Positions 23,385 through 41,443 of a stretch of 64,000 nt of DNA are shown in pieces; positions within the stretch are counted from its first letter, which is position 1; each line of letters begins with the position of its first letter. A model generated the notes under the pieces. That model ran no database searches, was not told the origin of the DNA, and saw nothing but the letters and a program-made list of their open reading frames with translations. The stretch spans positions 558,001 through 622,000 of the forward strand of contig JANSXV010000001.1 in NCBI GenBank assembly GCA_024742735.1, written 5' to 3'. This stretch comes from Alphaproteobacteria bacterium. Lineage in GTDB: Bacteria > Pseudomonadota > Alphaproteobacteria > Caulobacterales > Maricaulaceae. Position numbers and translations under genes: made by a program.

Positions 23385-23459
23385 TGGTCCCAATGCTCGC
23401 CTTTTCTTTTGAGCCGGGGGACCGACGAGGGGACTTAACTGTTTCGGCTGTGAGGTTTC

Positions 23460-24959: not shown

Positions 24960-25258
24960 AGTACCACCGCCATTCCCGCGCCGTGCTGAAAACGAAACGC
25001 TGGAAAGCCCTCCGCCTCCAGGCGCTGCGGCGCGACGGCTGGGCTTGCGTCCAATGCGGCGCGCGGACCCGGCTGGAGGTGGACCACCGCCTGCCTGTCC
25101 GCACTCACCCCGAACGCGCCTTTGACTTGGATAATCTCCAGGTGCTTTGCGCTCAACACCATACACAAAAGACCCGCAAAGAATGTGGGCACCCTGAACT
25201 AAGTCCAGAACGCCAACAATGGCGACAACTACTTATGGAGACCCCTCCCCATGCTTGA
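24950..25258 (+). CDS. HNH endonuclease, terminase partner
   Basis: A 102-aa HNH nuclease: the zinc-type pairs CVQCGARTRLEVDHRLPV and NLQVLCAQHHTQKT show the Cys pair, the catalytic Asp-His and the final His-His. HNH proteins beside the terminase are known in HK97-like phages to be needed for specific cos cleavage with TerL. Its position between terL and the capsid gene fits that role. It overlaps both neighbours. Confidence 0.92.
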   Translation: MGMKYHRHSRAVLKTKRWKALRLQALRRDGWACVQCGARTRLEVDHRLPVRTHPERAFDLDNLQVLCAQHHTQKTRKECGHPELSPERQQWRQLLMETPPHA

Positions 25259-26513
25259 ATCTGTGAAAATCCAACGCCGGCAAAGTGAGGTGCGCGAGCG
25301 CCTGGCCGTGCTGGCCGGTAATGAAAACCCTGGCGAAACCGAAACCCGCGAGCTTGACGCGCTCGACACCGAATACCGCACGCTGGAAAAGCGACTGCGC
25401 GCCGCGCTGATCGCGGAGGACAGCGAACGCCGCGAGGCTGGCGACGAGCTGGAGAAGCGCGATCAACGCGAATGGGCCGACATGCTCGGCGCGTTTGAGA
25501 TGCGCCAGATTGCGGCGGCGTTGGACAGCGGAAAAGAACTGTCCGGCCAGACCGCCGAGATCATCCAGGAGCTGCGGTCTAAAGGCGACTTCCGCGGCCT
25601 GCCCGTACCTTGGCAAGCCCTGGAACAACGCGCCGGCGAGACCGTGGCGAGCGGTACGCCCGACCCCGTGCAGACCCGCCCGATCATCGACAGGTTGTTT
25701 CCGGCGAGCGTGGCCGGCCGCATGGGCGTCCAGGCCGTGACGATCGGGCAAGGTGAAGTCGAATGGCCGGTTACGACGAGCTCGGTTTCCGCCGGCTGGG
25801 CCGCAAGCGAAACCGGCTCCGTGGCGAGCCCGACCGCCTACGCGACCACCGACCGCCCGCTTGCCCCGGACAATACGCTGGGCGTTCAAATGAAAATCAC
25901 GAGAAAGACGCTCAAACAAAGCGGCTCCGCTCTGGAGGCCGCGGTACGCCGCGACATGGCCGGCGCGATCGGCGCGGCGCTGGATCAGGCAGTGTTCCTT
26001 GGCAGCGGGTCCAGCGGCGAGCCCCTGGGCTTGATCGCTGGCGCGTCCACCTACGGAATCACTGAAACCGCGATCGACGCGGCGGCGTCCTGGAGTGCCT
26101 TCCGTGAGGCCGTTGTGAGGTTCCTGACCAGCAATGCCGCGGGCTCGCCTGAGGCCGTGCGCCTGCTGATCCGACCGGAGACCTGGGCCGCCCTGGACGG
26201 AGCGTATATCGACACCGGATCGGGCTTCACCGAGTTTGACCACCTCACCCGCAACATCCCGCGCGGCAATGTCACGATGAGCGCAAACGCCCTGGCCGAA
26301 CCGTCCGGCTCGCCCGCGGCGGCGTCCGCTCTGCTGACCACAAACGCCGCCGGCGTCCCGCCCGCCTTCGTCGGGCTTTGGGGAAGCGTTGACGTGGTAA
26401 GAGATCCGTACACCGACGCGGCGTCCGGCGGGCTTCGCCTGACCGGCCTTGCCACCGTGGACGTTACGGTATCCCGCCCGGCGCAGTCCGAAGTCCTGAC
26501 GGGCATTCAGTGA
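25251..26513 (+). CDS. Major capsid protein, HK97 fold
   Basis: A 420-aa protein. Residues 1 to about 115 form a charged coiled coil (the delta or scaffold domain). The shell domain then follows, with TRPIIDRLFPASVAGRMGVQ, LDQAVFLGSGSSGEPLGLI, RLLIRPETWAALDGAY and FVGLWGSVDVVRDPYTDA, all typical of the HK97 gp5 family. Cleavage of the delta domain by the following protease is expected. The gene overlaps the HNH gene by 8 bp and the protease by 4 bp. Confidence 0.93.
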   Translation: MLESVKIQRRQSEVRERLAVLAGNENPGETETRELDALDTEYRTLEKRLRAALIAEDSERREAGDELEKRDQREWADMLGAFEMRQIAAALDSGKELSGQTAEIIQELRSKGDFRGLPVPWQALEQRAGETVASGTPDPVQTRPIIDRLFPASVAGRMGVQAVTIGQGEVEWPVTTSSVSAGWAASETGSVASPTAYATTDRPLAPDNTLGVQMKITRKTLKQSGSALEAAVRRDMAGAIGAALDQAVFLGSGSSGEPLGLIAGASTYGITETAIDAAASWSAFREAVVRFLTSNAAGSPEAVRLLIRPETWAALDGAYIDTGSGFTEFDHLTRNIPRGNVTMSANALAEPSGSPAAASALLTTNAAGVPPAFVGLWGSVDVVRDPYTDAASGGLRLTGLATVDVTVSRPAQSEVLTGIQ

Positions 26514-27106
26514 TGACGGGGGAGCTCCAGGCCGGCGCGGCTCTAGCCTCCGGGCTGGAGCTCCGCCGCGAGGGCGACGGCTCCGTGACTGTCGCGGGCC
26601 GTTTCCCCTACGGAACCGAAACCACCTTGTCAGACGCCGGCGGGCGCGAGGTGCGCGAACGGATCGAACCGGGCGCGTTCTCCGACGCCATGCGCGAGGA
26701 CGCGGACGTGCACCTGCTGGCCGCACATAGCTTTGACCGGCCCTTGGCCTCCACCCGCTCCGGCACGCTGACCCTACGCGACACCGCCGAGGCGCTGGAG
26801 ATCGAGGCCCGGATAACCCCGGCTATCCTTCGCGCTGGATACGCAAACGACGCCATTGCAGCGGCGGAGGCCGGCCTGTCCACCGGCCTGTCACCGGGTT
26901 TCAGACTGCCCGCCGAGCGATCGACCGGAGAAGCCTGGGAAACCGCACCGGACGGCGCACGGGTCCGCCGGATCACGCGCGCCATGCTGGCCGAAGTCTC
27001 GTTAGTAACAAGGCCCGCATACGACACCGCCCGCGCGACCGTGCAGCGCCACCGTGAAGCCCCTGACGCTGGATTGCGCCGAGCCTTGCGCCGCTGGAGG
27101 GCGTGA
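26510..27106 (+). CDS. Prohead protease, HK97/U35-type
   Basis: A 198-aa serine protease that matures the capsid. It shows GRFPYGTETTL, ERIEPGAFSDAM, the catalytic His in LLAAHSFDRPLAST and the catalytic Ser in AEVSLVTRPAYDTA. The length is typical. It lies after the capsid gene, whereas HK97-type phages usually place it before; the overlap with the capsid gene is 4 bp (ATGA). Confidence 0.92.
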   Translation: MMTGELQAGAALASGLELRREGDGSVTVAGRFPYGTETTLSDAGGREVRERIEPGAFSDAMREDADVHLLAAHSFDRPLASTRSGTLTLRDTAEALEIEARITPAILRAGYANDAIAAAEAGLSTGLSPGFRLPAERSTGEAWETAPDGARVRRITRAMLAEVSLVTRPAYDTARATVQRHREAPDAGLRRALRRWRA

Positions 27107-27107
27107 C

Positions 27108-27653
27108 ATGGAACTGATCGCACAAAACGAATCCGACCCGGCGAGCTGGCCGGCGAAGCCCGCAGACCTGCCCGCTGCTGCGGATGCATGGCCGGCGGCG
27201 TTTATCTGGAAGCAACTTGAAACCCGGATCGCATGGCGCTGGAACGCCCGCGACGTGGAATGGATCGTGGAAGGCCCCGGCGCATTTGACCTGCCATTGC
27301 GCCCGGCGACCATCTCCACCGTGGAGGTGTTCGACGATGCGACCGGCTGGGAAACCGTCACGCTGGCCGCGACCCCGCGCGGCGGGCTCTATCTCCCGAC
27401 CCGTGACGCCTTCCGGGTCACTGCGAGCGCCGGAGACAGTGAGGCTCCGCCGGACATTCTGCTGGAGGCGTATCGGCGCCTTGCGGTCTATCTCGCCGAG
27501 CTTGAAGGCGAGCCCGCACCGGCTGGCGCGTCCTCTCACATGATCGAATTAGGCGGCGTGCGCGAGTCCACCCGATACGACCCGTGGCGACGGGCGCGCG
27601 CAATCGACATGAGCGGCGCCGGCGACCTGCTGCGGATTTATCGGAGGGCGTGA
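27108..27653 (+). CDS. Head-tail adaptor (gp6-like connector)
   Basis: A 181-aa protein from the ATG at 27108, 1 bp after the protease stop (the track starts at 27054). Features such as LPLRPATISTVEVFDDATGWETV, GLYLPTRDAFRVTASAGDSEAPPDILLEAYRRLAVYLAELEGE and SGAGDLLRIYRRA match phage gp6-like connector proteins that form a ring under the portal. The stop overlaps the portal ATG by 1 bp. With the stopper it would allow a borrowed tail to attach. Confidence 0.75.
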   Translation: MELIAQNESDPASWPAKPADLPAAADAWPAAFIWKQLETRIAWRWNARDVEWIVEGPGAFDLPLRPATISTVEVFDDATGWETVTLAATPRGGLYLPTRDAFRVTASAGDSEAPPDILLEAYRRLAVYLAELEGEPAPAGASSHMIELGGVRESTRYDPWRRARAIDMSGAGDLLRIYRRA

Positions 27654-28714
27654 TGTTCGGACTATTCAAACGCGCCGAGCCGAAACAAGAGACCCGTGCC
27701 ACCGCCTCCGGCTTCACCGCCGAGCTTATGGCCGCGCGCGAAGCATGGATAAGCGGCAGCCGGGGAATCGCCGAGCTGACCGCCACGACGCAGTCATGCG
27801 TGAGCTTGTGGGAACATGGGCTTTCCATCGCGGACGTGACGGGGTTTGACCTGCTGGACCGGCGCACCCTGGCGCTGGCCGCCCGATCGCTGGCGCTTCG
27901 TGGCGAAGCCGTTTTCCTGATGCGTGACCGGCTCGTGCCTGCGGCGGATTGGGACGTTGCAACACGCCTCGGCGAGCCCCGCGCCTATCGTTTGAGCATG
28001 GCAGACGCGGGCGGCGGCACGAGCGAAACCGCGCTCGCTGGCGAGGCGCTGCATTTTCGGATCGGTTCGGACGTGGCCGCGCCCTGGGCTGGGCAGGCTC
28101 CATTGAAGCGCGCGGCGCTGACCGCTGGGCTTCTCCAGGCTGTCGAAACGGCGTTGTCGGAAGTCTATGAGACCGCCCCGCTGGGCTCGCAAATCATCCC
28201 GTTTCCAGAAGCGCCGGACACCGACCTGGAGGCGCTGGGACGCGGGTTTCGTGGACGGCGTGGCCGCGTGCTGCTGCGCGAGAGTGTGCATGTCCAGGCC
28301 GCAGGCGGCGCGGCTCCATCGCAGGACTGGCGCCCGGCGGACGTGACACCGGACCTGTCCAGGGCGATGACGGCGGAAAGCCTGGACCGGGCGCGCGGCT
28401 CCATCATGGCCGTGTTCGGCGTCCTGCCCGCCATGTTCGACAAGGCCGCGCAAGGCCCGCTGGTACGCGAAGCGCAGCGCCACCTTGCAAGCTGGATGCT
28501 CCAGCCGATCGCGGCGGGCATCGCCGAAGAAGTCGCACAGAAGACCGGGCAGGCCGTGGAGATCGACTGTATGCGACCCCTCCAGGCGTTCGACGCCGGC
28601 GGACGGGCGCGCGCCATGTCCGGCATCATCAAGGCGCTGGCCGACGCGAAAGACGCTGATCTTGACCCGGCGCAGATTGAAGCGGCGGGCCGGCTTGTGG
28701 GCTGGGACATATGA
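27653..28714 (+). CDS. Portal protein, HK97 family
   Basis: A 353-aa portal starting at the ATG at 27653 (GGAGGG upstream), not at 27584 as in the track. Typical pieces are MFGLFKRAEPK, CVSLWEHGLSIADV, AETALSEVYETAPLGSQIIPFPE, LDRARGSIMAVFGVLPAMFD and AQRHLASWMLQPIAAGIAEEV. Somewhat shorter than the portal of HK97 itself. It forms the dodecameric DNA gate on which TerL docks. It is last in the head operon, reversed from the usual portal-protease-capsid order. Confidence 0.88.
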   Translation: MFGLFKRAEPKQETRATASGFTAELMAAREAWISGSRGIAELTATTQSCVSLWEHGLSIADVTGFDLLDRRTLALAARSLALRGEAVFLMRDRLVPAADWDVATRLGEPRAYRLSMADAGGGTSETALAGEALHFRIGSDVAAPWAGQAPLKRAALTAGLLQAVETALSEVYETAPLGSQIIPFPEAPDTDLEALGRGFRGRRGRVLLRESVHVQAAGGAAPSQDWRPADVTPDLSRAMTAESLDRARGSIMAVFGVLPAMFDKAAQGPLVREAQRHLASWMLQPIAAGIAEEVAQKTGQAVEIDCMRPLQAFDAGGRARAMSGIIKALADAKDADLDPAQIEAAGRLVGWDI

Positions 28715-28839
28715 CAGGATCGGCGGCGGATTTCACTCCTGTTACCGCCGCTGATACGCCGCGCCCGGCTCCGTAGAGACGCGCGCGGCAAATAGAGGGC
28801 GGTTTCTCCGTGCCGCCCGGCGTGTTGATCGGCACGCCT

Positions 28840-28879
28840 AGCGCCTCCGGCGGTGTTCCTTCAGGCCGCTGGAGGCGCT
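28840..28879. terminator. Terminator between the portal gene and the integrase-side operon
   Basis: AGCGCCTCC (28840-28848) pairs with GGAGGCGCT (28871-28879), and GCGG / CCGC extends the stem. TTCTGTT follows on the plus strand. The rest of 28715-28883 shows nothing else I can support. Confidence 0.65.
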
Positions 28880-28883
28880 TCTG

Positions 28884-29429
28884 TTAGCGACGGTTGCGAG
28901 CGTGCGGCCAGTCAATCCGGCCATATCGGTTTTCACCATCGCGGATCATGTCGCGCACTGCGGATGCGCTGGGCTTTTTGCCACCGCGAATGTGGGCGAT
29001 CTCTTCGCGCGCATCCTCTACGGCGTTCTGCTCTAGCCCGCCGCGCCGAGCTTCACCGTTTGCGATAATCCAGCAAGTCGAAACATCATCGTCGTACTGG
29101 CGATAATTCTTCGCCTGACCGCGCTTGCGCGTGAGTGCGGGGAACGCCTCACCGAGTCCCTTTTTCTGGCCTGTACGGATCGCCTCTAAGCCGGCGTGCA
29201 GCGCATCGCTCGCCCATGCGGGCGGAGCAAGCCCCGTCTGAGAACATGCGTCCAGCGCCGCCCATAGCGCCCATGCATCACCGGCTTCATGGGCCGCTTT
29301 CCACCCGTCCAGATGCGACCACGCCATGTAAGACGAAACACTCGGTTCCTGCCCACGGGCAAGGTGCGCGAGATAGTCCTTATTCGTGTGAACCTCGGTT
29401 GCGAACTGCTCTAGCGTGAACTCGCGCAT
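28884..29429 (-). CDS. Unknown satellite protein cotranscribed with the integrase
   Basis: A 181-aa soluble protein. It starts MREFTLEQFATEVHTNKDYLAHLARG and has a helical middle, a KKGLGEAFPALTRKRGQ basic stretch, a DDDVSTCWIIANGEARRGG segment and a possible HTH at the end (KPSASAVRDMIRDGENRYG). I recognise no family. Its start shares 1 bp with the integrase stop, so it is translated from the same message. In satellites this slot often holds a regulatory, interference or defence gene, which makes it the most interesting unknown here. Confidence 0.75.
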   Translation of the reverse strand: MREFTLEQFATEVHTNKDYLAHLARGQEPSVSSYMAWSHLDGWKAAHEAGDAWALWAALDACSQTGLAPPAWASDALHAGLEAIRTGQKKGLGEAFPALTRKRGQAKNYRQYDDDVSTCWIIANGEARRGGLEQNAVEDAREEIAHIRGGKKPSASAVRDMIRDGENRYGRIDWPHARNRR

Positions 29430-30658
29430 TATGCCGCCCCTTCAACAAAGGCCGACCAGTCCGCCGCCAGCGCCCGGCGCTTGTCCATCAAATCGCCGCG
29501 CTGATAGTGCGCCTCAATGCCTTTGACGGTGTGCGCCAGCGCCATTTCAGCGACCCATGACGGATGATCGGTTTCCTCCGCCGCCCATGTCCTGAATGAC
29601 GCGCGGAAACCGTGGACAGTGACGCCCTCTAGCTTCATGCGCTTCAAGACCGCGCCTAGCGTCATGTCGCTCATGGGCTTCTGCTGGCCATCCTTGGACG
29701 CCATGTCGGATGCAAACACGAAGCCCTCCGACCCGTGACGCTGGCGACGGGATTGCAGGATACGCACGGCGGCGTCACTGAGCGGCTTGCGGTGTTCGGC
29801 TCCGGCCTTCATCCGGCCCGCCGGGATTGTCCAGACGCGCTCGCCTAGATCGACCTCCGCCCATGTCATGCCCCTGACCTCGCCCGATCGCGCGGCGGTG
29901 TGGATCGTGAACGCCAGCGCCTCCGCAGCCGCGCCGGAACGGTCCTTTAGCTTGCCCATGAACGCCGGAACATCGTCGTAAGGCATGGCGCCGAAACCCG
30001 ATGCGCCAGCGTTCTTTTTCACTCTGGCAGGACTGGGCAAGTGGTGCTCAAGCCCATTGGTCCAGCGCGCGGGATTGTCTCCGGTGCGAAACCCGCTCGT
30101 TGTTGCCCAAGCTAAAACCGCCTCGATGCGCCCGCGTAGGCGCGAGGCCGTTTCGACCTTCTGCGACCAGATCGGCTCAAGGATTTTCTTGATGTGGGCG
30201 AACTCAATATCAGCGACCGGCAAGCGCCCGATGACCGGGTAAGCGTAGGTTTCCAACGTGGACCGCCATTGCGCGGCGTGCTTCGCATTTTTCCATTCAG
30301 GCGCTTTTGCGGCGATCAGCTTTTCTGCGGCCTCCTTGAACGTCACCGCCTTGGCGTGCTCCGCCAGAGCCCGCCGCCGATCCTCTTGACGCTCCGCCAG
30401 TGGATCAACACCGCGATCTAACAGGCGGCGTGCATCTGCTGCTTTCTCGCGCGCATCCTTCAATGTGACGCGCGGGTACGAGCCGAGCCCCATGCGCCGC
30501 TCACGACCATGCAGCCAATATCGGAACACCCATGACCGGCCCGTGTGCGCCGTCGCGGTTTTCTGGACCCGCAGCATAAGCCCGCCGCCATCATTGTGGA
30601 CGCCTGGACCCAACGTCTCGACGCGCTTGGCCGTGAAGGTGTGGAGGTTCCGCCGCAT
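29429..30658 (-). CDS. Tyrosine integrase, P4-type
   Basis: A 409-aa site-specific recombinase. The N-terminal DUF4102 arm-binding domain (GPGVHNDGGGLMLRVQK...RSWVFRYWLHGRERRMGLGSYPRVTLKDAREKA) is followed by a core-binding SAM-like domain and the catalytic domain with Arg in HTAARSGEVRGMTW, the HGFRASFRTWA box and the Tyr in EAHYQRGD. This type inserts into the 3' ends of tRNA genes. It lies at the far end from the tRNA, pointing inwards, with two GTATACGGT repeats just upstream of its start. Confidence 0.95.
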   Translation of the reverse strand: MRRNLHTFTAKRVETLGPGVHNDGGGLMLRVQKTATAHTGRSWVFRYWLHGRERRMGLGSYPRVTLKDAREKAADARRLLDRGVDPLAERQEDRRRALAEHAKAVTFKEAAEKLIAAKAPEWKNAKHAAQWRSTLETYAYPVIGRLPVADIEFAHIKKILEPIWSQKVETASRLRGRIEAVLAWATTSGFRTGDNPARWTNGLEHHLPSPARVKKNAGASGFGAMPYDDVPAFMGKLKDRSGAAAEALAFTIHTAARSGEVRGMTWAEVDLGERVWTIPAGRMKAGAEHRKPLSDAAVRILQSRRQRHGSEGFVFASDMASKDGQQKPMSDMTLGAVLKRMKLEGVTVHGFRASFRTWAAEETDHPSWVAEMALAHTVKGIEAHYQRGDLMDKRRALAADWSAFVEGAA

Positions 30659-30672
30659 CGCCTAGCCCTTCC

Positions 30673-30694
30673 TGTATACGGTCCAGTATACGGT
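30673..30694 (+). repeat. Paired GTATACGGT repeats upstream of the integrase
   Basis: TGTATACGGT (30673-30682) and AGTATACGGT (30685-30694), again 12 bp apart and in the same orientation as the left pair. The two 27-bp blocks match at 23 positions. Lying in the int promoter region, they may serve both recombination and autoregulation. Confidence 0.7.
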
Positions 30695-30721
30695 CCCGAA
30701 CCGGATACCAGCACATAAGGC

Positions 30722-30791
30722 GGAACGTCACGGAACACAAGGGCGGGCTTAAACCCTATATATCAACGGCATATAGGAACGTCACGGAACA
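30722..30791 (+). repeat. 16-bp direct repeats between integrase and attR
   Basis: GGAACGTCACGGAACA occurs exactly at 30722-30737 and 30776-30791; each copy itself contains GGAAC twice. The spacer is AT-rich (TATATATCAACGGCATATA). Probably additional protein-binding sites of the right attachment region. Confidence 0.65.
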
Positions 30792-30814
30792 GGTTGGATT
30801 CCCGATGCAGCGGA

Positions 30815-30828
30815 CATCGCCTCCGCCA
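30815..30828 (+). repeat. attR
   Basis: CATCGCCTCCGCCA, an exact copy of the tRNA-Ser 3' end at 20849-20862. Host sequence resumes after it; 30829-30935 holds no gene I can see. Confidence 0.9.
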
Positions 30829-30935: not shown

Positions 30936-31814
30936 TCAAACCACTGCGGCGAATACTGGGATTGCGGCGCCCGCCGCCGCGCGCTTCATGCCGGGAGAGT
31001 TCCACGCGAAGACGACTTCACCCGACCGCGTGACGGCGATGACGCCGCCATCCCCGCCCCGGCGCGCCACATCGGCCAACATGGCGTCTGCGGCGGCATT
31101 TACGTCCGCGCCGCCATAGCGCATGCGCGCGGCCATATCGCCTGCGCCGCCGGCGAGGATGAAAGCCTCCCCGACACCGGTCGCCGAAATCGCCACATTA
31201 CTGTCCGCCCATGTACCGGGTCCGATCAGCGGCGTGTCGCCCACCCGCCCGGCGTGCTTGCCGAAGGTTCCGCCTGTCGACGTCGCCGCGGCGAGCCGGC
31301 CCTGCCGGTCCAGGGCGACGGCCCCGACCGTGCCGTGGGCGGCGGCCTTCGGATCGTCAAAGTCGGCCGGCTCTACACCGTCAGGGATGCGATAATAGCT
31401 CGCCGGATCCTCAACCCGGGCCAGCCCCTGCGTTTCGATAAAATCCATGGCGCCCGCGCCCGCAAGCAGGACATGGCCGCTCGCGTCCATCACCCGGCGC
31501 GCGGCGGTGATCGGATGCACCACGTCACGCACCGCCGCCACGGCGCCGGCCCGCATCGCGGCCCCGTCCATGATGGAGGCGTCAAGCTCGACATAGCCTG
31601 CGGTGTTCGGCGCCGATCCACGACCGGCCACGCACAGGCCTTCGGCTTCCAGGGCGCGCACGGCTGTCTCCACGGCGTCGAGGGCCGACACGCCCCGTTT
31701 CAGCGCTTCGGCGCCATCCCCGGCGAGGCGCCTGAGCTGGGCTTCGGCGCGGCTGTAATCGCGTCCGGGCTTCACTCCGGCGCCGCCGTGAAGAGCTATG
31801 GCGTAAGGGGTCAT
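30936..31814 (-). CDS. Isoaspartyl peptidase / L-asparaginase (plant-type, Ntn hydrolase)
   Basis: A 292-aa self-processing enzyme that cleaves beta-aspartyl dipeptides. The start is the ATG at 31814 (MTPYAIALHGGAGV); the track's version is 37 codons too long. Family blocks are LDAVETAVRALE, GRGSAPNTAGYVELDASIMDG and the autocleavage site AAHGTVGAVALD with its N-terminal nucleophile Thr. No signal peptide, so cytoplasmic. It overlaps the cyanophycinase stop by 4 bp. In that setting its natural substrate would be beta-Asp-Arg released from cyanophycin. Confidence 0.93.
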   Translation of the reverse strand: MTPYAIALHGGAGVKPGRDYSRAEAQLRRLAGDGAEALKRGVSALDAVETAVRALEAEGLCVAGRGSAPNTAGYVELDASIMDGAAMRAGAVAAVRDVVHPITAARRVMDASGHVLLAGAGAMDFIETQGLARVEDPASYYRIPDGVEPADFDDPKAAAHGTVGAVALDRQGRLAAATSTGGTFGKHAGRVGDTPLIGPGTWADSNVAISATGVGEAFILAGGAGDMAARMRYGGADVNAAADAMLADVARRGGDGGVIAVTRSGEVVFAWNSPGMKRAAAGAAIPVFAAVV

Positions 31815-33079
31815 TGCGCAGCCTCGCGGGACAGGGGGGCGACGGTGATGCGCACGGGCGTGATGTCGAAGCGCACAGCTGCAGCGGTGAACTTCGCCTC
31901 GCCAGCTTGATTGCGGCCCCACCACCCCGCCGAGGCGTCGATTTGCAGGAACCGATAGACGACGCCGGCATCGCCGGAGAAAGAGACTCGCTCGACTGCG
32001 CTTGAGGCGGCGTTGTCCAGCAGGGCGTCGCCGAGCACCGCGGCGAGCGTGTCACCCGACACGGCCATGCCCCCGCCGGACACCACCGGCTGGTCAAAAT
32101 ATTCCGATCCGACCGTGGCCGACTTGTAGCCGGCGGGCGCATAGGCGCCGGTGTCGATGTTCAACACGTCGCCGCCGCTGAGCAGATGCACCAGAAGGCC
32201 ACGCACGCTGAGCGCGTCTCCAGCCGGCTCCGTCTGCGCGGACCTGGCGTCCACGATGGTCACCGCGCCTTCGCCAATGACCGTCAGCTCATGGGTGGAG
32301 AGGTCGGCGATCAGGGCGGTGTTCTCATCCACGCCGAAGCCCATGGGCAGCGCCTCGCCGGCCGAAAGCACCGCGCGCGCCAGACGGCCCAGGCGGGCGC
32401 GCTGCTCGAAATGCTGGTCGGTGATCCCATAGGGAAAGAAACCCAGACCCCGCCCCAGAACGAGGCGGTCGGTCTCCGGCGCTTCGGTCCCGTCGGCGAG
32501 CGCCATCGGCGATTCAAGCAGGGCCGGCAGCGTCTCGCCGCGCACGATCATCACCGGGCTCATCATGGCTGCGCCAGCACTCGTTCCGCCAATCACCGCG
32601 CCGTCTGCAAGGCGCGCGCGCAAGGCGGACAACATCGGCGTGTCACGCCCATCATCCTCGATCAGCGCCTCTGTGATGCGGGCCTGATCGCCGCCGGTGA
32701 ACCAGATGGCGTCCGCAGATTCTATCTTGGCGATCTCGTCGAGATCCGAGGCGTTCCCGGCCCAGGCGCTTTCATTGACCGTTTCGGTCTCGGGATCATT
32801 CACAATGGCGAGATCGACGCGCACGATGTTCGCCGGATCGACGCCATAGGCGGCCAGCGCCTCTGCGAAGCTCGCCGCTGACCCGGCTGGATAACCCGAC
32901 GCCGTGGGCAGGATGGCGAAGCGGGCCCCAGGCCCGCCTGCGGCGTCAATGAACGCCTCAAATACCTCGGCGTTCCCCTCGTCGAGGGCGCCGCCGGCGA
33001 TCACAAGGGTTCCAGGATCCGCCGCCGCAGCGCCCGTGAGGCCAAGCGCCGCCGCAGCAGGCAGGAGAATTGATTTCAT
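31811..33079 (-). CDS. Secreted cyanophycinase (peptidase S51 family)
   Basis: A 422-aa exported serine peptidase, taking the ATG at 33079 so that the protein begins with a Sec signal peptide (MKSILLPAAAALGLTGAAAA). The family features are LVIAGGALDEGN, ILPTASGYPAGSA, AIWFTGGDQARI and the nucleophile elbow VIGGTSAGAAMMS, then FGVDENTALI. It hydrolyses cyanophycin (multi-L-arginyl-poly-Asp) to beta-Asp-Arg dipeptides; export fits the extracellular CphE type rather than the intracellular CphB. A 100-residue C-terminal extension follows the core. It lies 11 bp after the permease gene and overlaps the dipeptidase gene. Confidence 0.9.
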   Translation of the reverse strand: MKSILLPAAAALGLTGAAAADPGTLVIAGGALDEGNAEVFEAFIDAAGGPGARFAILPTASGYPAGSAASFAEALAAYGVDPANIVRVDLAIVNDPETETVNESAWAGNASDLDEIAKIESADAIWFTGGDQARITEALIEDDGRDTPMLSALRARLADGAVIGGTSAGAAMMSPVMIVRGETLPALLESPMALADGTEAPETDRLVLGRGLGFFPYGITDQHFEQRARLGRLARAVLSAGEALPMGFGVDENTALIADLSTHELTVIGEGAVTIVDARSAQTEPAGDALSVRGLLVHLLSGGDVLNIDTGAYAPAGYKSATVGSEYFDQPVVSGGGMAVSGDTLAAVLGDALLDNAASSAVERVSFSGDAGVVYRFLQIDASAGWWGRNQAGEAKFTAAAVRFDITPVRITVAPLSREAAQ

Positions 33080-33090
33080 GGTTAACCCTT

Positions 33091-34572
33091 TCAGGAGTAC
33101 CCGATCGCCTGAGCGATCAGAACAAAGGTGCTGGCGAGCACGATCAGCGCCAGCATGGGCTTCCAGATGAAGCGCAGCCAGGTCACCCAATCCAGACGCG
33201 CCGCCGCAAGGCACCCCATGAGAGCGGCGCTGGCCGGCACGATCAGATTGGTCAGACCGTCGCCCAGTTGGAAGGCCAGAACGGCGGTCTGGCGGGTGAC
33301 GCCGGACAGATCCGCCAGCGGCGCCATGAGCGGCATGGTCAGCGCGGCCTGGCCGGAGCCGGACACCACGAGAAGATTGATGAAGCTCTGACTGACATAC
33401 ATGCCCAGCGCCGCCATCCAGTCCGGCAGTGCGCCGGTGAACTGCCCGGCGCCGTGGAGCGCAGCGTTCAGAAGGCTCGGCTCGGTCGGATCATCCCCGC
33501 CCAGAACCACGACCGCGCCCTTGGCGGCGGCGACGATCAGGGCGGCGGGCAGGAGCTGCATGGCCCCTTCACGAAACGCTGCGACCAGCGCGTTGCCGTC
33601 CACGCCATTCAGACCAAAGACCCGTCCGATGATCGCAGCGGCGAGGCCGATGGCGAAGAACTGAGCGGCGATCTCGGCCAGGTAATAGCCCTGCGTCGCG
33701 ACACCCCAGGCGATCCAGACGACGCCTAGGCCCAGCGCGGCGAGGACGAGATAATCACCGAGGGAGACCGGTGTCGCCTCCGCGTCGAGCTCCTGCTCGC
33801 GCTCGCGCCAGTAGGCGTCGGACACGTAGCCGAGCGAAGTCTCGGGTTTCAGCCGTACATGGCGGGCGTAGGCGTAGGCGAAGCCGGCGCCCAGGGTGGT
33901 GAACACGCTCCACATGGCGACCCGGAAGCCCAGCCCGGACAGGGCGGGCAGGTCGGCGATGGATTGGGCGACGATGACCGAGAAGGGGTTCATCCAGCTG
34001 GTGGCGAAGCCGATCTGGGTCGCGGCGTAGCAGGCCAGCACGCCGGTGATGGAGTCGTAACCCGCCCTTATCAGGGCTGGAACGACGATGAGGCAGAGGA
34101 CGATCGCCTCCTCGCCCATGCCGAACACCGCGCCGGCCAGGGAGAAGACCACGAACAGGATAGCGACGAGCGCATCGGACGGCCGGGTCCGCTTTTCAAG
34201 CGCGCCCTTGAGGATCCGCTCCAGCGCGCCGGTGCGCATGACGACGCCGAACGCGCCGCCGACGACCAGAAGGAAGGCCATGAGGCCGACGGTCGCCGAG
34301 TAGCGGTCCCCGCTGATCAGGCCCTCGAACAGGAAGTTGAGGAAGCCGGGGTCGGCGCTGGTTCCGAACAGCGGCGCCGGGTCCGGGCCGTCGGCGGGGG
34401 TGAAGCTGCCCGGATCGATCCGGGCGCGTTCCCCCTCCGCGCTCGCGGCTAGCTCGAAGGCGCCGGGCGTAAAGATGTAGGTGGCGGCGAACGCCAGCAC
34501 CGCCACCGTGAACACGATGAGATAGCTGTCAGGCAGGCGCGAGGCCTTACCCGCAGGCTCTGGATTCGCCAT
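33091..34572 (-). CDS. YfcC-family permease (arginine or dipeptide transport)
   Basis: A 493-aa polytopic membrane protein with about 12 hydrophobic segments. It opens LPDSYLIVFTVAVLAFAATYIFTPGAFEL and contains LVVGGAFGVVMRTGALERIL, FGMGEEAIVLCLIVVPALIRAGYDSITG and LLVVSGSGQAALTMPLMAPLADLSGVTRQTAVLAFQLGDGLTNLI, all typical of the YfcC/DcuC-like group often labelled basic amino acid antiporters. Between a TonB receptor and a cyanophycinase, it probably carries beta-Asp-Arg or arginine across the inner membrane. Confidence 0.88.
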   Translation of the reverse strand: MANPEPAGKASRLPDSYLIVFTVAVLAFAATYIFTPGAFELAASAEGERARIDPGSFTPADGPDPAPLFGTSADPGFLNFLFEGLISGDRYSATVGLMAFLLVVGGAFGVVMRTGALERILKGALEKRTRPSDALVAILFVVFSLAGAVFGMGEEAIVLCLIVVPALIRAGYDSITGVLACYAATQIGFATSWMNPFSVIVAQSIADLPALSGLGFRVAMWSVFTTLGAGFAYAYARHVRLKPETSLGYVSDAYWREREQELDAEATPVSLGDYLVLAALGLGVVWIAWGVATQGYYLAEIAAQFFAIGLAAAIIGRVFGLNGVDGNALVAAFREGAMQLLPAALIVAAAKGAVVVLGGDDPTEPSLLNAALHGAGQFTGALPDWMAALGMYVSQSFINLLVVSGSGQAALTMPLMAPLADLSGVTRQTAVLAFQLGDGLTNLIVPASAALMGCLAAARLDWVTWLRFIWKPMLALIVLASTFVLIAQAIGYS

Positions 34573-34662
34573 GGATCAGATCTCCAGGGACCGGCGCCGG
34601 ACAGGGCGGGCCGCAGCGAAGCATGCCTCGCCGCGGCCCGGACTTGCAAACGCGCGGGGGCC

Positions 34663-37488
34663 TCAGAAGCCGTAGCGCAGGCGCACGGTCACATAGCGTC
34701 CCAGAGCGGAGTGGTTGATCAGATCCACGTTGGATCCCGACCCCAGAACCAGCGGCGGCTCCTCGTCCAGAAGATTGCGGACATTGAGCTGGATGAAGGT
34801 GTTCTCCGCAAAGTCGTAGCTGAGATTGGCGTCCAGCACGAACCAGGAGTCCACGTCCACCTGGGCGTCGGTCGGAAGGCCGACCGCTTCCAGCGTGCGC
34901 GGGCTGGGATCATCCTCATAGCTTGAGGTGTAGCGCCCGGTCACCGAGGCGCGCCACTCTTCCAGCGTCCAGCGCACGGTGGCGTTGGCCAGGAGCTCTG
35001 GATAGCGGAAATCGCCAGCCAGCTCCTCCACCGGAGAATTCGGCGAGGCCTGGCGTTCGAACTCCAGCAGATAGGTCAGATCGAACAGCAGCGCGAGATC
35101 ACCAATGGGCGTGTCGTCGATATACTGGGTGTAGCTGAAGTCCACGCCGCTGGTTTCCTGATAGCCCAGATTGGTGATCTGGAAGTGGGCGTCGGACACG
35201 AAGCCGTTATTGACCTCCAGGCCCGGCGTGCCGGTCGGCAGGCCGCCGGGACCGGCCACCGTGAACTCGCCGGCCAGGGCGCGGCGGATGAAGTCGTCCT
35301 CATCAATGCCGACCAGGTCTTCGTGGCGGATATTCCAGTAGTCCAGGTTGATGTCGATGTCCGAGGTCGGGCGGAACAGGACGCCGGCCCCGAAGGTCTC
35401 GGCGTTCTCGGCGCCCAGATCGGGGTTGCCGACATCTTCCGACAGCAACGAGGCGCCGGAGGCCATCGGGTCGCCGTCACAGGCGCCGGGCGTGTCCTGG
35501 CAGTCGATGGTGTAGGAGGACAGAAGGACCCCCGCGCCGGACTGGGCGAGCGACGGGGCGCGGAAGCTGGTCGACCAGTTCGCCCGGAAGATCAGATTGT
35601 CCAGCGCCTGGTAGCGGACCGCGACTTTCGGATTGAAGTCGCCGCCGAAGCCCTCGTAATCATCGTACCGGCCGGCCAGCTGGAGATCGAGAGTGTCGGC
35701 CAGCGGCACGTAAAGCTCGCCGAATACCGCCCAGACATCGCGCTCGGCGTCCACGCTGGTGGACGAGAAGCCCAGGATCGGCTCGGGATTGTCGAGCGTG
35801 GCGACCGCGGCGCCGGAGGGCGTGTCGGTGACTTCCTCGCGGCGGAACTCCGCGCCGAATGCGGCCAGAACCGTACGCCCGTTAAACTGGAACAGCTCGC
35901 CGGTGGCGTTGAGATCAAGGCCGTACATGCGGCTCTCGCCGTTGCGCTCGGCCCGCGTCTCCAGAAGTTCGTTCAGGCCGTCGGGCTGGTCGGTCTGACC
36001 GCCGAACGGATTGTACCAGAGCGTGGTCTTGCCGACATCTTCGCAGGTGTCGCCGAAGAAGCTCGCCGAGGGACGCTCCAGGTCCACATCCCAGCGCCGT
36101 ACCGTCGTGCCGTCCGAGCACAGATTGCCGAGATTGGCGTTGTAGAACGCTTCGGAGATCACCAGCCCGGACACGCCGCGCTGGGTGCGGTCATTGCCGC
36201 CATAGAGCAGCCCGGCTTCAAGCGTCCAGCTATTGTCGAAGTCGAATTCAAACCCGGTGGTGAAGCGGAAGCTTTCGCTCTCCACCTCGACGGCGCGCGG
36301 GTCCAGAAGCTTGCCCCAGGCGAAGATCGGGAAGCCGTAATAGTCGGTGAAATCGACCGTTCCCCCTTCCGCGACGATGTCGGCCTGAAGGGCCGCCGGC
36401 CAGTTGGGATTCTCCGGATCGACCGGCGCGCGCGAGAAATTCGCCGGAGATCCCGTGCCGCGGCTGTCGGAGCTCTGATACAGCAGCTCGTTGAAGATGC
36501 TCAGACGGTCATTGACCTGCCAGTTATGGGTGAACAGCCCGCCGACGCTTTCCATCTCGTCGGTGATGGAGACGAAGTCGTTCACATCGACTTCGCAATA
36601 CTCCCCGAACGGCCCGCTATCGAACTGGTCCGCCGGACAACCGCCGTCGGCCGGTTCCTCGGTCTGGTCGAAGAACTGGAAGAACAGGTCGTTGAAGCTG
36701 GGATAAAAGCCTTGCTGGCTTGGGCGCACGCTGTCCTCGGTGAAGGACCGGTCGCGCTCGTAGAAGGCGTTGCGCTTGAAGTAGTCCACCACGGCCGTGA
36801 CGTTATGGTCGCCGAACTGACGCCCGATCACGGCGTTGACGTTCAGCCGGCCCTCATCGGTGTCGGCGGTGGAGTTCCCGTAGGAGGCCGTGATCTCCTG
36901 ACCCACATAGTCGTCGCGAAGCACGTAGTTGATCACGCCGGCCACCGCATCGGCGCCATAGAGCGCGGACGCGCCGTTGGGCAGAACTTCGACGCGCTCG
37001 ACCGCAGACAGCGGAATGGCGTTCACGTCGATGAAGCTCTCCTGCCCGTTGGCGAACGCCGACACGTTGGCCCGCCGGCCGTTGATGAGGGTCAGCGTCG
37101 CGCTGGTCCCGAGACCGCGCAGTGAGACGCCCGCCGCGCCCACCGGCGTGTCGCTGCTGAGCGGCCCCGCGGTGGAGGTCGAGAACGTGCCGCCGCCGCC
37201 GGCGGTGATGGTCAGATCGCCCAGTAGGTCGATGATCGAGGTGGCGCCGCTGTCTTCGATGTCCTGGCGGTCAAGCTGGAAGGCCTGCGCCGCCCCGTCG
37301 AGATCGAGCCCGCGAATGCGCGAGCCGACGACGGTGATGGTGTCGTCTGCGCCCTGTTCGTTCGCCGTCTCGTCGGCCTCGGTGGATTGCGGCTCGGCGT
37401 CCTGCGCCCAGCTCGGGGCTGTCAGCGCGCCGGCTGCGTACAGCGCGGCGATCACGCCGGCCAGATGGGTGTGCTTGTCCTTGGTCAT
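34663..37488 (-). CDS. TonB-dependent receptor, probable cyanophycin-fragment importer
   Basis: A 941-aa outer-membrane receptor. A signal peptide (to PSWAQ) precedes a plug domain with DTITVVGSRIRGLDLDGAAQAFQLDRQDIEDSG, VSLRGLGTSATLTLINGRR and RVEVLPNGASALYGADAVAGVINYVL; the barrel ends LGRYVTVRLRYGF with the usual terminal aromatic. This Oar/peptide-like subgroup is large in Caulobacterales and often linked to peptide or amino-acid uptake. It is the first structural gene before the permease, cyanophycinase and dipeptidase, 90 bp upstream of the permease. Its message has a 340-nt leader. Confidence 0.93.
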   Translation of the reverse strand: MTKDKHTHLAGVIAALYAAGALTAPSWAQDAEPQSTEADETANEQGADDTITVVGSRIRGLDLDGAAQAFQLDRQDIEDSGATSIIDLLGDLTITAGGGGTFSTSTAGPLSSDTPVGAAGVSLRGLGTSATLTLINGRRANVSAFANGQESFIDVNAIPLSAVERVEVLPNGASALYGADAVAGVINYVLRDDYVGQEITASYGNSTADTDEGRLNVNAVIGRQFGDHNVTAVVDYFKRNAFYERDRSFTEDSVRPSQQGFYPSFNDLFFQFFDQTEEPADGGCPADQFDSGPFGEYCEVDVNDFVSITDEMESVGGLFTHNWQVNDRLSIFNELLYQSSDSRGTGSPANFSRAPVDPENPNWPAALQADIVAEGGTVDFTDYYGFPIFAWGKLLDPRAVEVESESFRFTTGFEFDFDNSWTLEAGLLYGGNDRTQRGVSGLVISEAFYNANLGNLCSDGTTVRRWDVDLERPSASFFGDTCEDVGKTTLWYNPFGGQTDQPDGLNELLETRAERNGESRMYGLDLNATGELFQFNGRTVLAAFGAEFRREEVTDTPSGAAVATLDNPEPILGFSSTSVDAERDVWAVFGELYVPLADTLDLQLAGRYDDYEGFGGDFNPKVAVRYQALDNLIFRANWSTSFRAPSLAQSGAGVLLSSYTIDCQDTPGACDGDPMASGASLLSEDVGNPDLGAENAETFGAGVLFRPTSDIDINLDYWNIRHEDLVGIDEDDFIRRALAGEFTVAGPGGLPTGTPGLEVNNGFVSDAHFQITNLGYQETSGVDFSYTQYIDDTPIGDLALLFDLTYLLEFERQASPNSPVEELAGDFRYPELLANATVRWTLEEWRASVTGRYTSSYEDDPSPRTLEAVGLPTDAQVDVDSWFVLDANLSYDFAENTFIQLNVRNLLDEEPPLVLGSGSNVDLINHSALGRYVTVRLRYGF

Positions 37489-37686
37489 GGTCCGTCTCCT
37501 TCGGCCGCCCGGCGCGCCGTTCCGGCGCCGGTGCGGGCGGGTCCCCTGTCATTGTCGGTGGAATGCGATGGACGGTTCGGCGCGGGCGAGACTTCAGCCC
37601 GGAGGCGCTGGCGTTTCCTCACCGTCGCGCTGCGAGCGGCTTAAGGCTCGGGCGTGGTGCGATCAGATTGGGAAACGCTGCGCACA

Positions 37687-37706
37687 CTCGCCTGGCTAAA
37701 GGCGAG
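37687..37706 (-). promoter_or_regulatory. Leader hairpin between the small ORF and the TonB receptor
   Basis: CTCGCCT-N6-AGGCGAG, a perfect 7-bp stem lying about 30 nt after the small leader ORF on the minus strand. No T-tract follows, so it is not a plain terminator. It could be part of a leader-peptide-dependent switch. Confidence 0.35.
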
Positions 37707-37737
37707 GCGCCGCCATCCGCGTCAGGCGGGGCTGTGC

Positions 37738-37809
37738 TTATTCGTTGAACCAGTCCGTCAGGTGGTATTGCACGGACCGGCGCACGAGAACCTGGTGTAT
37801 AGCGGACAT
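37738..37809 (-). CDS. Candidate 23-residue leader peptide
   Basis: Too short for the ORF track. ATG at 37809 with the strong ribosome binding site GAGGAG five bases upstream; the product is MSAIHQVLVRRSVQYHLTDWFNE. It lies about 18 nt after the predicted start of transcription and about 250 nt before the TonB receptor gene. It contains two adjacent arginines (VRRS), suggestive given the arginine-rich substrate predicted for the operon, but too few for a classical attenuation run. Could also be a stand-alone small protein. Confidence 0.45.
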   Translation of the reverse strand: MSAIHQVLVRRSVQYHLTDWFNE

Positions 37810-37833
37810 GCGGTCTCCTCAACGCGCGATCGA

Positions 37834-37863
37834 ACGGTAAGCGATGGCGCCGCGTCATGACAA
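37834..37863 (-). promoter_or_regulatory. Promoter of the TonB receptor/cyanophycinase operon
   Basis: On the minus strand TTGTCA (plus 37858-37863) and TACCGT (plus 37834-37839) are 18 bp apart, just ahead of the leader ORF. The remainder of 37489-38002 (upstream of pyc and the rest of the receptor leader) has no further gene I can support. Confidence 0.45.
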
Positions 37864-38002
37864 GCCGCCAGAGTGAGCGCCCGCGGAGATTCGTTGACGT
37901 GTTGCGGTTCCGTGACAGCCCCACGCAGAGACATTTACTCCTCGCCCTTCGATTCCGCGCCGGACTGGCCTAGGTTGATGTCCGGACAAAAAGGACGGTG
38001 CT

Positions 38003-41000
38003 TTGACCTTCAAGAAGATCCTGGTCGCCAATCGCGGTGAGATCGCCATTCGCGTCATGCGCGCGGCCAACGAGATGGGCAAGAAGACGGTCGCGGTCTA
38101 CGCCGAGGAGGACAAGCTCTCCCTCCACCGCTTCAAGGCCGATGAGGCCTACAAGATCGGCGAAGGGCTGGGACCCGTCGCGGCCTATCTGTCCATCGAG
38201 GAGATCATCCGGGTCGCGCGCCTGAGTGGCGCGGATGCGATCCATCCCGGCTATGGCCTGTTGTCGGAAAACCCCGATTTCGTGGACGCCTGCGTCGAGG
38301 CAGGGCTAACCTTTATCGGCCCGCGCGCGGAGACGATGCGCGCGCTGGGCGACAAGGCGAGCGCCCGGCGCGTGGCGATCGAGGCCGGCGTGCCGGTCGT
38401 TCCGGCGACCGAGGTTCTGGGCGATGACATGAAGGCCATCGCCCGGGACGCCGAAGAGATCGGCTATCCCCTGATGCTGAAGGCCAGCTGGGGCGGCGGC
38501 GGGCGCGGCATGCGCGCCATCAACGGCCCTGACGAGCTGGTGGCCAAGGTGCTGGAGGGCCGGCGCGAGGCCGAAGCCGCCTTCGGCAATGGCGAAGGTT
38601 ATCTGGAGAAGATGATCACCCGCGCTCGCCACGTGGAGGTCCAGATCCTGGGCGACAAAGCGGGCGGCATCTATCACCTGTTCGAGCGGGACTGCTCGGT
38701 CCAGCGGCGCAATCAGAAAGTCGTGGAGCGCGCGCCGGCGCCCTATCTGAGCGAGGCGCAACGCGCTGAAATCTGCGAGCTCGGCCGCAAGGTCTGCGCC
38801 CATGTGAACTATGAGTGCGCGGGCACCGTCGAGTTCCTGATGGATATGGAGACCGGCGCGTTTTACTTCATCGAGGTGAACCCGCGCATTCAGGTCGAGC
38901 ATACCGTGACCGAAGAGGTCACGGGAATCGACATCGTGCGCGCGCAAATCCTGATCAGCGAAGGCGCAACGCTGGCTGAAGCCACGGGCGCGGCCAGCCA
39001 GGCGGACGTGAAGCTGGACGGTCACGCAATCCAGTGCCGTGTCACAACCGAAGACCCCACCAACAACTTCATCCCCGATTATGGCCGCATCGCCGCCTAT
39101 CGCGGCGCGACAGGAATGGGGATCCGGCTTGATGGCGGGACGGCCTATTCCGGCGCGATCATCACACGCTATTACGACTCACTGCTGGAGAAGGTCACCG
39201 CCTGGGCGCCCGAGCCGGACGCGGCCATCGCGCGCATGGACCGGGCTCTGCGCGAGTTTCGCATTCGCGGGGTGAGCACGAATATCGACTTCGTGATCAA
39301 CCTTTTGAAACACCCCACCTTCCTGGCCAATGAATACACCACGACCTTCATCGACCAGACTGAGGAGCTGTTCGATTTCCGACCCCGGCGCGACCGCGCG
39401 ACCCGGATCCTGCGCTATATCGCCGACATCACGGTGAATGGTCATCCCGAGACCGAGGGTCGGCCAAGACCCCGCGCGGATCTCACAGCCCCCCGGCCTC
39501 CGGCCACCAGCATCAAGCCGGCGCCGGCGGGAACCCGCCAGCTGCTGGACGAGCAAGGCCCCCAGGCGGTCGCGGACTGGATGAAGGCGCAGGATCGCCT
39601 GCTGATCACCGACACCACCATGCGCGACGCCCACCAGTCCCTGCTGGCCACGCGCATGCGCTCGCATGACATGATCAAGGCTGCGCCGGCCTATGCCGAG
39701 AAACTGCCCGAGCTGTTCTCGGTGGAATGCTGGGGAGGGGCGACCTTCGATGTCGCCTATCGTTTCCTGCAAGAGGACCCTTGGAAACGCCTGCGCGGCA
39801 TCCGCGAGAAAATGCCCAACATCATGACCCAGATGCTGCTGCGCGGGGCGAACGGTGTTGGCTACACCACTTACCCAGACAATGTGGTGCGCGCCTTCGT
39901 GCACCAGGCCGCGGACAGCGGCGTCGATGTCTTCCGCGTGTTCGACAGCCTGAACTGGGTGGAGAACATGCGCGTCGCCATGGATGCGGTGCTGGAGACC
40001 GGCAAGCTGTGCGAAGGCACGATCTGTTACACCGGCAACATCCTGGATCCCGACCGGTCCAAGTATGACCTGAAATACTATGTCACGATGGCCAAAGCGC
40101 TGGAGGCCGCCGGCGCCCATGTGCTGGGCCTGAAGGACATGGCCGGGCTGCTCAAACCGGCTGCGGCGAGCATACTGATCCCGGCGCTCAAGGATGCGGT
40201 GGATCTGCCCATCCACTTCCACACCCACGACACCTCCGGCATCGCGTCCGGCACGATCCTGGCGGCCTCGGCGGCGGGCGTGGACGCGGTGGACTGCGCC
40301 ATGGACGCATTGTCGGGCAACACCTCGCAAGCCACGCTCGGCACGATCGTTGAGGCCCTGCGCTTCACCGAGCGCGACACGGGCCTCGACATCGCCGCCG
40401 TGCGCGAGATCTCCGACTACTGGGAGGCTGTACGCGCCCACTACGCCGCGTTCGAGAGCGGCCTGCAGGCGCCTGCGTCAGAGGTGTATCTGCATGAAAT
40501 GCCGGGCGGGCAGTTCACCAATCTGAAGGCCCAGGCCCGCTCCATGGGACTGGAGGACCGCTGGCACGAGGTCGCGGCCATGTACGCCGAGGTCAATCAG
40601 ATGTTCGGCGATATCGTGAAGGTCACCCCCTCCTCCAAGGTCGTCGGCGACATGGCGCTGATGATGGTGTCCCAGAACCTGACCCGGGCCGAGGTGGAGA
40701 GCCCGGACACGCCCGTGACCTTCCCCGATTCCGTCATCGACATGATGCGCGGCAATCTGGGGCAGCCGCCGGGCGGCTTCCCGGACGCGATCGTGAAGAA
40801 GGTGCTGAAAGACGAGGCGCCCAATCTGGAACGGCCGGGCAAGGGCGTGCCGCCCACGGACCTTGAGAAGGTCCGCGCCGAACTGAGCGAAACCCTTCAG
40901 CGCGAAGCGACCGGTGAAGATCTGATGGGTTACCTCATGTATCCCAAGGTCTTTACCGAGTTCGCAGCGCGCGACGCCGACTATGGCCCGGTGCGCGCCC

Positions 41001-41443
41001 TGCCCACCCACGCTTTCTTCTACGGCATGGAGCCCGGTGAGGAGATCGAGGTGGACATCGACCCGGGCGTGACCCTCATCATTCGCCTCCAGGCGGTCGG
41101 GGAGACCCATGATGACGGCGAGGTCCGCGTCTTCTTTGAGCTGAACGGCCAGCCGCGCACCGTCAGGGTGCCGAATCGCAGCGCGGCTGTGACCCAGACC
41201 AAGCGCAAGAAAGCCGAAGCTGGAAACGCCGATCACGTGGGCTCGCCCATGCCCGGCGTGGTGGGCTCGGTGGCCGTCAAAGCCGGTCAGAAGGTGAAGC
41301 CAGGCGACACCCTGTTGACCATCGAGGCCATGAAGATGGAATCCGGCCTCAACGCCGAGCGCGAAGGCGTTGTAAAAGCTGTCCATGTCAGCCCTGGCGA
41401 CCAGATCGACGCCAAGGACCTCCTGGTGGAATTCGAGGCCTGA
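38003..41443 (+). CDS. pyc: Pyruvate carboxylase
   Basis: A 1146-aa biotin enzyme that carboxylates pyruvate to oxaloacetate, an anaplerotic step. In order: biotin carboxylase (KILVANRGEIAIRV, the ATP-grasp loop KASWGGGGRGMR, FIEVNPRIQVEHTVTEEVTG), the carboxyltransferase barrel (ITDTTMRDAHQSLLATRMR, FHTHDTSG, LSGNTSQ), the PC-specific linker, and a C-terminal biotinyl domain with the lysine in IEAMKMESGL. The start is TTG (LTFKKILVANRG); AAGGA lies about 7 bases upstream and no ATG fits as well. It stands alone. Confidence 0.97.
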   Translation: MTFKKILVANRGEIAIRVMRAANEMGKKTVAVYAEEDKLSLHRFKADEAYKIGEGLGPVAAYLSIEEIIRVARLSGADAIHPGYGLLSENPDFVDACVEAGLTFIGPRAETMRALGDKASARRVAIEAGVPVVPATEVLGDDMKAIARDAEEIGYPLMLKASWGGGGRGMRAINGPDELVAKVLEGRREAEAAFGNGEGYLEKMITRARHVEVQILGDKAGGIYHLFERDCSVQRRNQKVVERAPAPYLSEAQRAEICELGRKVCAHVNYECAGTVEFLMDMETGAFYFIEVNPRIQVEHTVTEEVTGIDIVRAQILISEGATLAEATGAASQADVKLDGHAIQCRVTTEDPTNNFIPDYGRIAAYRGATGMGIRLDGGTAYSGAIITRYYDSLLEKVTAWAPEPDAAIARMDRALREFRIRGVSTNIDFVINLLKHPTFLANEYTTTFIDQTEELFDFRPRRDRATRILRYIADITVNGHPETEGRPRPRADLTAPRPPATSIKPAPAGTRQLLDEQGPQAVADWMKAQDRLLITDTTMRDAHQSLLATRMRSHDMIKAAPAYAEKLPELFSVECWGGATFDVAYRFLQEDPWKRLRGIREKMPNIMTQMLLRGANGVGYTTYPDNVVRAFVHQAADSGVDVFRVFDSLNWVENMRVAMDAVLETGKLCEGTICYTGNILDPDRSKYDLKYYVTMAKALEAAGAHVLGLKDMAGLLKPAAASILIPALKDAVDLPIHFHTHDTSGIASGTILAASAAGVDAVDCAMDALSGNTSQATLGTIVEALRFTERDTGLDIAAVREISDYWEAVRAHYAAFESGLQAPASEVYLHEMPGGQFTNLKAQARSMGLEDRWHEVAAMYAEVNQMFGDIVKVTPSSKVVGDMALMMVSQNLTRAEVESPDTPVTFPDSVIDMMRGNLGQPPGGFPDAIVKKVLKDEAPNLERPGKGVPPTDLEKVRAELSETLQREATGEDLMGYLMYPKVFTEFAARDADYGPVRALPTHAFFYGMEPGEEIEVDIDPGVTLIIRLQAVGETHDDGEVRVFFELNGQPRTVRVPNRSAAVTQTKRKKAEAGNADHVGSPMPGVVGSVAVKAGQKVKPGDTLLTIEAMKMESGLNAEREGVVKAVHVSPGDQIDAKDLLVEFEA

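Follow-up and report, generated by a model that had tools for sequence, protein, structure and literature searches.

A probable cyanophycin-scavenging operon with a TonB-dependent receptor and a YfcC-type permease of its own in an alphaproteobacterium

The locus beside described cyanophycin systems

Clusters of cyanophycinase and dipeptidase genes were reported by Sharon and Schmeing in 2023 for genomes without the cyanophycin synthetase CphA1 (45 of 52), often together with amino acid transporters (PMC10206079). As cited there, Ben Hania et al. (2017) described a "cyanophycin utilization locus" in the Bacteroidetes strain L21-Spi-D4, where a cyanophycinase, an isoaspartyl dipeptidase and a transporter are clustered for scavenging. 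Tang et al. (2012) noted a TonB receptor near a cyanophycinase in Citromicrobium sp. JLT1363, with cyanophycin among the likely substrates (PMC3400609). Here we describe a locus of four genes in a window of 64,000 nucleotides (the whole stretch of DNA analysed) from an alphaproteobacterium of the Maricaulaceae. It shares with the Bacteroidetes locus, as cited, the clustering of the same three kinds of gene, and differs from it in carrying IaaA rather than iadA, in having a TonB receptor but no SusD, and in its YfcC-type permease. It resembles the Citromicrobium locus in gene neighbourhood, with a TonB receptor next to a cyanophycinase, whereas the excerpts of that account considered here name neither permease nor dipeptidase, both of which the window has. 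Citromicrobium belongs to the Sphingomonadales, in which we also found the full four-gene operon (loci L043, L044, L046 and L051). For the complete receptor-YfcC-CphE-dipeptidase operon, no description was found in the literature searched, which lay mostly outside subscription journals, and the same search returned none of the receptor/permease pairing or of an exchange of IaaA and IadA within the operon. The initial annotation had taken a dedicated receptor and permease to be undescribed; as far as the excerpts and citations at hand go, this overstates the case for the parts, since a receptor by a cyanophycinase (2012) and loci with a transporter (2017, 2023) were known, and it holds better for the complete operon with matched importers, which appears to be hardly described.

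The four genes lie consecutively on the minus strand: a TonB-dependent receptor of 941 aa (34663-37488), an inner-membrane permease of the YfcC/DcuC family and IT superfamily of 493 aa (33091-34572), a CphE-type cyanophycinase of peptidase family S51, predicted to be exported, of 422 aa (31811-33079), and an IaaA-type isoaspartyl dipeptidase, an Ntn hydrolase of 292 aa (30936-31814). Domain scans and coordinates thus bear out the layout given in the initial annotation, including its 4-bp overlap of the last two genes, which is exact: the cyanophycinase stop codon and the IaaA start codon share the ATGA at 31811-31814 (minus strand). The receptor and permease genes are 90 bp apart, the permease and cyanophycinase genes 11 bp, and the four may be co-transcribed as an operon. 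The upstream boundary at 37863 had to be moved, because the receptor gene starts with an ATG at 37488, just downstream of a GAAGGAG, and 37489-37863 is a non-coding leader. This leader is part of the intergenic region (37489-38002) between the receptor gene and a divergent pyruvate carboxylase-like gene, which is presumed to contain the promoter. A search of the operon for sigma-70 promoters and RNA elements recognised none, and no regulator gene was seen beside it. Three gammaproteobacterial loci (L116, L053 and L097) have a regulator gene upstream of the operon, of the RpiR/MurR type in L116, where it was checked.

A small prophage or integrative element of ~10 kb (window 20849-30828) is inserted in a tRNA-Ser gene (20772-20862), the 3' end of which (CATCGCCTCCGCCA) is repeated at 30815-30828, with an integrase gene (29429-30658) beside that copy and phage-like genes, read by eye, at about 23460-28714. 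As the end of the element lies 108 bp from the IaaA stop codon, the operon sits at a tRNA integration site. When window positions 30936-41443 were compared with L145, the closest pyruvate carboxylase-like gene (G034) had 92% protein identity over the first 300 aa, and around it this gene was the only match to the window. Four further members of the genus, moreover, have no cyanophycinase in their genomes, so that a gain of the operon beside the pyruvate carboxylase-like gene or a rearrangement of the region may explain the difference.

Scavenging and the site of polymer cleavage

The cyanophycinase belongs to the curated family TIGR02069 (212 bits, cut-off 126.6), and its best PDB matches, by sequence and by fold, are cyanophycinases. 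The eight residues found critical in Synechocystis CphB, Gln101, Ser132, Asp172, Gln173, His174, Arg178, Arg180 and Arg183 (PMC3235067), align in this order with Q132, S167, D221, Q222, H223, R227, R229 and R232, and all eight are present; they include the catalytic Ser and His (S167, H223) and the substrate-binding Gln, Asp and three Arg (Q132, D221, R227, R229, R232). Across 12 orthologues they are invariant, except for R227, which is nearly so. An AlphaFold model (mean pLDDT 85) superimposes on the solved cyanophycinases 7uqv, 7uqw and 3en0 with TM-scores of 0.86-0.89, normalised by target, and shows in addition a C-terminal extension of about 110 residues, rich in beta structure, that these three structures lack. 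The critical residues and the fold rule out that the S51 gene encodes PepE or a McC-resistance peptidase. The N terminus, like that of the orthologues, is signal-peptide-like as judged by eye (MKSILLPAAAALGLTGAAAA), so that the protein combines an export signal, a C-terminal extension and a length of 422 aa, close to the about 420 aa of extracellular CphE enzymes. Family, size, export signal and critical residues are those of the CphE enzymes of Pseudomonas anguilliseptica and P. alcaligenes (CphEal), which, however, has a Thr beside the catalytic His where the window protein has a Gln (PMC3235067). Unlike CphEal, the window CphE belongs to an operon with transporters.

The genome (3.23 Mb in 34 contigs, completeness 100%) carries this one cyanophycinase, and no CphA1 was found in it, the best of 13 partial matches reaching 65 bits against a cut-off of 850. 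This absence marks the locus as one for scavenging and rules out a cluster for the cell's own cyanophycin storage. A cyanophycinase, an isoaspartyl dipeptidase and a transporter are thus clustered in a genome without CphA1, as in a cyanophycin utilization locus, and scavenging as such is, by this gene content, very likely.

In the division of labour that we consider probable, exported CphE, either secreted or retained within or at the surface of the envelope, would trim the insoluble polymer from its end to beta-Asp-Arg, the TonB receptor would carry this dipeptide across the outer membrane and the YfcC-type permease across the inner membrane, and cytoplasmic IaaA would split it into Asp and Arg. 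Alternatively, CphE might be a periplasmic enzyme, either free or a lipoprotein, and soluble cyanophycin chains or oligomers would then have to be imported by the receptor, much as by SusC in a polysaccharide locus. The signal visible on CphE is a general export signal, the signal peptide ends in a lipobox-like cysteine in one receptor-bearing relative (L020/L132) and in a relative without a receptor nearby (L014), and Bacteroidota have SusC and SusD beside the cyanophycinase, all of which would fit such an arrangement. Nevertheless, we regard it as unlikely, since cyanophycin is insoluble, with a size of 25-100 kDa, and related CphE enzymes occur in culture supernatants (PMC3235067), since cyanophycinases are exo-enzymes that release dipeptides (PMC10206079), and since one of the two secretins encoded in the genome could serve type II secretion. 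Cleavage may take place outside the cell rather than in the periplasm, if CphE is exported as its signal-peptide-like stretch predicts.

Entry of the dipeptide into the cell

The last enzyme of the proposed route scores 244 bits against the Asparaginase_2 family (PF01112), and its PDB matches are isoaspartyl peptidases. Its nucleophile, Thr162, follows a Gly in the motif HGTVGA, and the family's residues are in place (G161-T162, T180, R190, D193, T212 and G213). Compared with the IaaA of Roseivivax halodurans, likewise from an alphaproteobacterial cyanophycin gene cluster, the residues contacting the Asp moiety are conserved save for one substitution of Thr for Ser; that cluster contains CphA1, which the window's genome lacks (PMC10206079). 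The protein falls short of the E. coli IaaA equivalog NF007589 (184 bits versus 567), placing it in the same family but not among its close orthologues, and two further Asparaginase_2 genes are found elsewhere in the genome. No export signal was found on IaaA, which in an alignment of orthologues begins directly with the first strand. Hence, the dipeptide has to reach the cytoplasm.

The receptor carries the Plug (PF07715) and beta-barrel (TonB_dep_Rec, PF00593) domains of TonB-dependent transporters, with a signal-peptide-like N terminus (MTKDKHTHLAGVIAALYAAGALTAPSWAQ) and a TonB-box-like segment (DTITVVGSRIRG); the N terminus and the motif DTITVVGS were read by eye. About two dozen TonB receptor matches are present in the genome. 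We propose this one as the outer-membrane importer of beta-Asp-Arg or of short cyanophycin pieces. Caulobacter takes up small nutrients such as maltose by TonB receptors and, to our knowledge, is without general porins, which bears on why so small a compound (about 290 Da) would need a TonB receptor.

The permease is a member of the YfcC family NF008611 (615 bits, cut-off 500) and matches PF03606 with 392 bits. For its AlphaFold model (mean pLDDT 82), the nearest structures are YdaH and MtrF, both AbgT transporters (TM-score about 0.63), which fits the IT superfamily. AbgT transporters carry aminobenzoyl-glutamate, a dipeptide-like compound. NCBI names the YfcC family "putative basic amino acid antiporter", and ArcE of S. 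pneumoniae (TC 2.A.118), a member of the IT superfamily too, is an arginine/ornithine exchanger (PMC5300872), so that the window permease might carry free amino acids and its role as a beta-Asp-Arg importer is proposed from genomic context. That the permease is an exchanger of the arginine/ornithine type, serving the products instead of the dipeptide, appears rather improbable to us, however, because IaaA carries no export signal and the operon offers no other permease through which the dipeptide could enter the cytoplasm, and because AbgT transporters are the nearest solved structures. YfcC homologues with neither receptor nor cyanophycinase nearby are found elsewhere in the phylum (L153-L155 and L157), indicating that the permease family by itself is no marker of such a locus.

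Conservation of the operon and exchange of the dipeptidase

Among 200 genomes of the order, which includes Caulobacter vibrioides, close receptors (58-72% identity) were found in 8 genomes besides the window's, and close permeases (55-63% identity) in exactly the same 8, each beside a cyanophycinase. These genomes span five genera and five families, and the next homologues follow only at 31% identity for the receptor and 38% for the permease. The chance that two independent sets of 8 out of 199 coincide is 2e-14, a figure left uncorrected for relatedness. Within the order, several cyanophycinase loci lack a receptor or permease of this kind in their neighbourhood. In an alphaproteobacterial set drawn from a scan of named genomes and from the loci of the order survey, all 17 loci with receptor and permease run in the order receptor-permease-cyanophycinase, followed by IaaA in 16; they include loci of Caulobacter, Brevundimonas, Aurantiacibacter, Qipengyuania and Sandarakinorhabdus. 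Caulobacter vibrioides DSM 9893 and Aurantiacibacter odishensis KCTC 23981 are culturable relatives that carry this operon. In the receptor-bearing locus L049, no dipeptidase was found. As the window's gene order recurs in 16 other alphaproteobacterial loci, the four-gene arrangement is, judged by synteny, far beyond chance.

Gammaproteobacteria of the genera Microbulbifer, Halioglobus, Parahaliea, Exilibacterium, Pseudoalteromonas and others contributed 8 loci with the receptor, 7 of which also have the permease and, in place of IaaA, IadA (TIGR01975, 349-481 bits against 331 in the three tested). One receptor-bearing locus, L116, has neither permease nor dipeptidase nearby, and IaaA and IadA stand together in no locus. 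On a receptor gene tree, which contains one very long branch (L082), the dipeptidase label changes three times each for IaaA and IadA, which does not fix the number of exchanges. That two unrelated enzymes with only their reaction in common replace each other points to a beta-aspartyl dipeptide as the imported compound, and this exchange provides the best sequence evidence for what the importers deliver.

A phylum-wide search yielded receptors of lower similarity (32-35% full-length identity) that likewise adjoin YfcC, and the six gammaproteobacterial loci of this kind that were examined all have IadA and a divergently transcribed S51 gene. These S51 genes were initially missed, as a family search at E <= 1e-30 reported none in the four genomes with a distant receptor. 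The five proteins aligned (L147-L151, about 600 aa) contain a long insertion that follows the first strand, and keep all cyanophycinase-critical residues, with the Thr of CphEal rather than Gln beside the catalytic His; one was reported by the family search, at 109 bits, below the TIGR02069 cut-off. Judged by these residues, they are likely to be cyanophycinases missed by annotation. The idea that distant gammaproteobacterial receptor-permease operons lack a cyanophycinase was thereby rejected, the S51 gene being present in 6/6 loci and the critical residues in the five aligned.

These loci also bear on a broader function of the operon, namely the use of beta-aspartyl (isoaspartyl) peptides of any origin, aged protein for instance, cyanophycin being one source among others. 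The IaaA and IadA enzymes of cyanophycin clusters are indeed promiscuous, acting on many beta-aspartyl dipeptides (PMC10206079). Yet a cyanophycinase accompanies the receptor in the loci examined, the six distant ones included, and the cyanophycin-binding arginines are kept in those cyanophycinases, which leaves the broader function doubtful in our view. Finally, although the family models alone would allow a receptor and a permease with other substrates, such as a siderophore or a dicarboxylate, placed here as chance neighbours, their joint and adjacent occurrence in five families of the order, along with the sharp identity gap to other homologues, make this hardly credible.

Outside the order, the named loci were picked by their resemblance to the window cyanophycinase, so that the frequencies are biased and do not constitute a census. 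Among the best matches in Bacteroidota, 13 loci have SusC (10/13), SusD (8/13) and IadA (11/13) beside the cyanophycinase. Loci L054, L056, L066, L069, L071, L096, L107 and L111 combine SusC, SusD and cyanophycinase, mostly with IadA, and a PKD-domain protein was checked in one of them. By analogy, such SusC/SusD loci may be the peptide-polymer counterpart of polysaccharide utilization loci. Among Firmicutes, whose cells lack an outer membrane, permease, IadA and cyanophycinase occur together in 12 of the 27 best-matching loci, and Bacillus-type loci (L070, L073, L075, L079, L081, L084, L099 and others) often carry two to three tandem cyanophycinase-like genes.

Overall, the window very probably holds a real, complete and conserved cyanophycin-scavenging operon with a receptor and a permease of its own. 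The use of cyanophycin, as proposed in the initial annotation, is well supported by the absence of CphA1, the complete set of cyanophycinase residues, the conserved four-gene set and the replacement of IaaA by IadA; its expectation that the four families co-occur in relatives was borne out by the 16 further loci and by the paired receptor and permease in 8 genomes of the order. Its wider statement that every step is covered stands for the enzymes and for scavenging, whereas external cleavage and beta-Asp-Arg as the cargo of the permease are inferred. Gene order, enzyme families, critical residues, the export signal, the absence of CphA1 and co-conservation are seen in the sequence, and the substrates of receptor and permease, the cleavage site and co-transcription are inferred.

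We lean towards the view that the receptor and the permease represent the first importers dedicated to beta-aspartyl dipeptides, the receptor forming a TonB subfamily specific to cyanophycin breakdown that is paired with the YfcC permease, and that together with CphE and IaaA or IadA they form an alpha- and gammaproteobacterial module parallel to the SusCD loci of Bacteroidota. Cyanophycin is a widespread nitrogen store, and its consumers in nature are poorly known. Because producers too have a cyanophycinase, the receptor-permease pair that accompanies it would mark scavenger genomes better than cyanophycinase alone. The pair would also provide a likely substrate for one branch each of the TonB receptors and of the YfcC/DcuC permeases, large families mostly without assignment, and would make beta-Asp-Arg import directly accessible to mutation tests.
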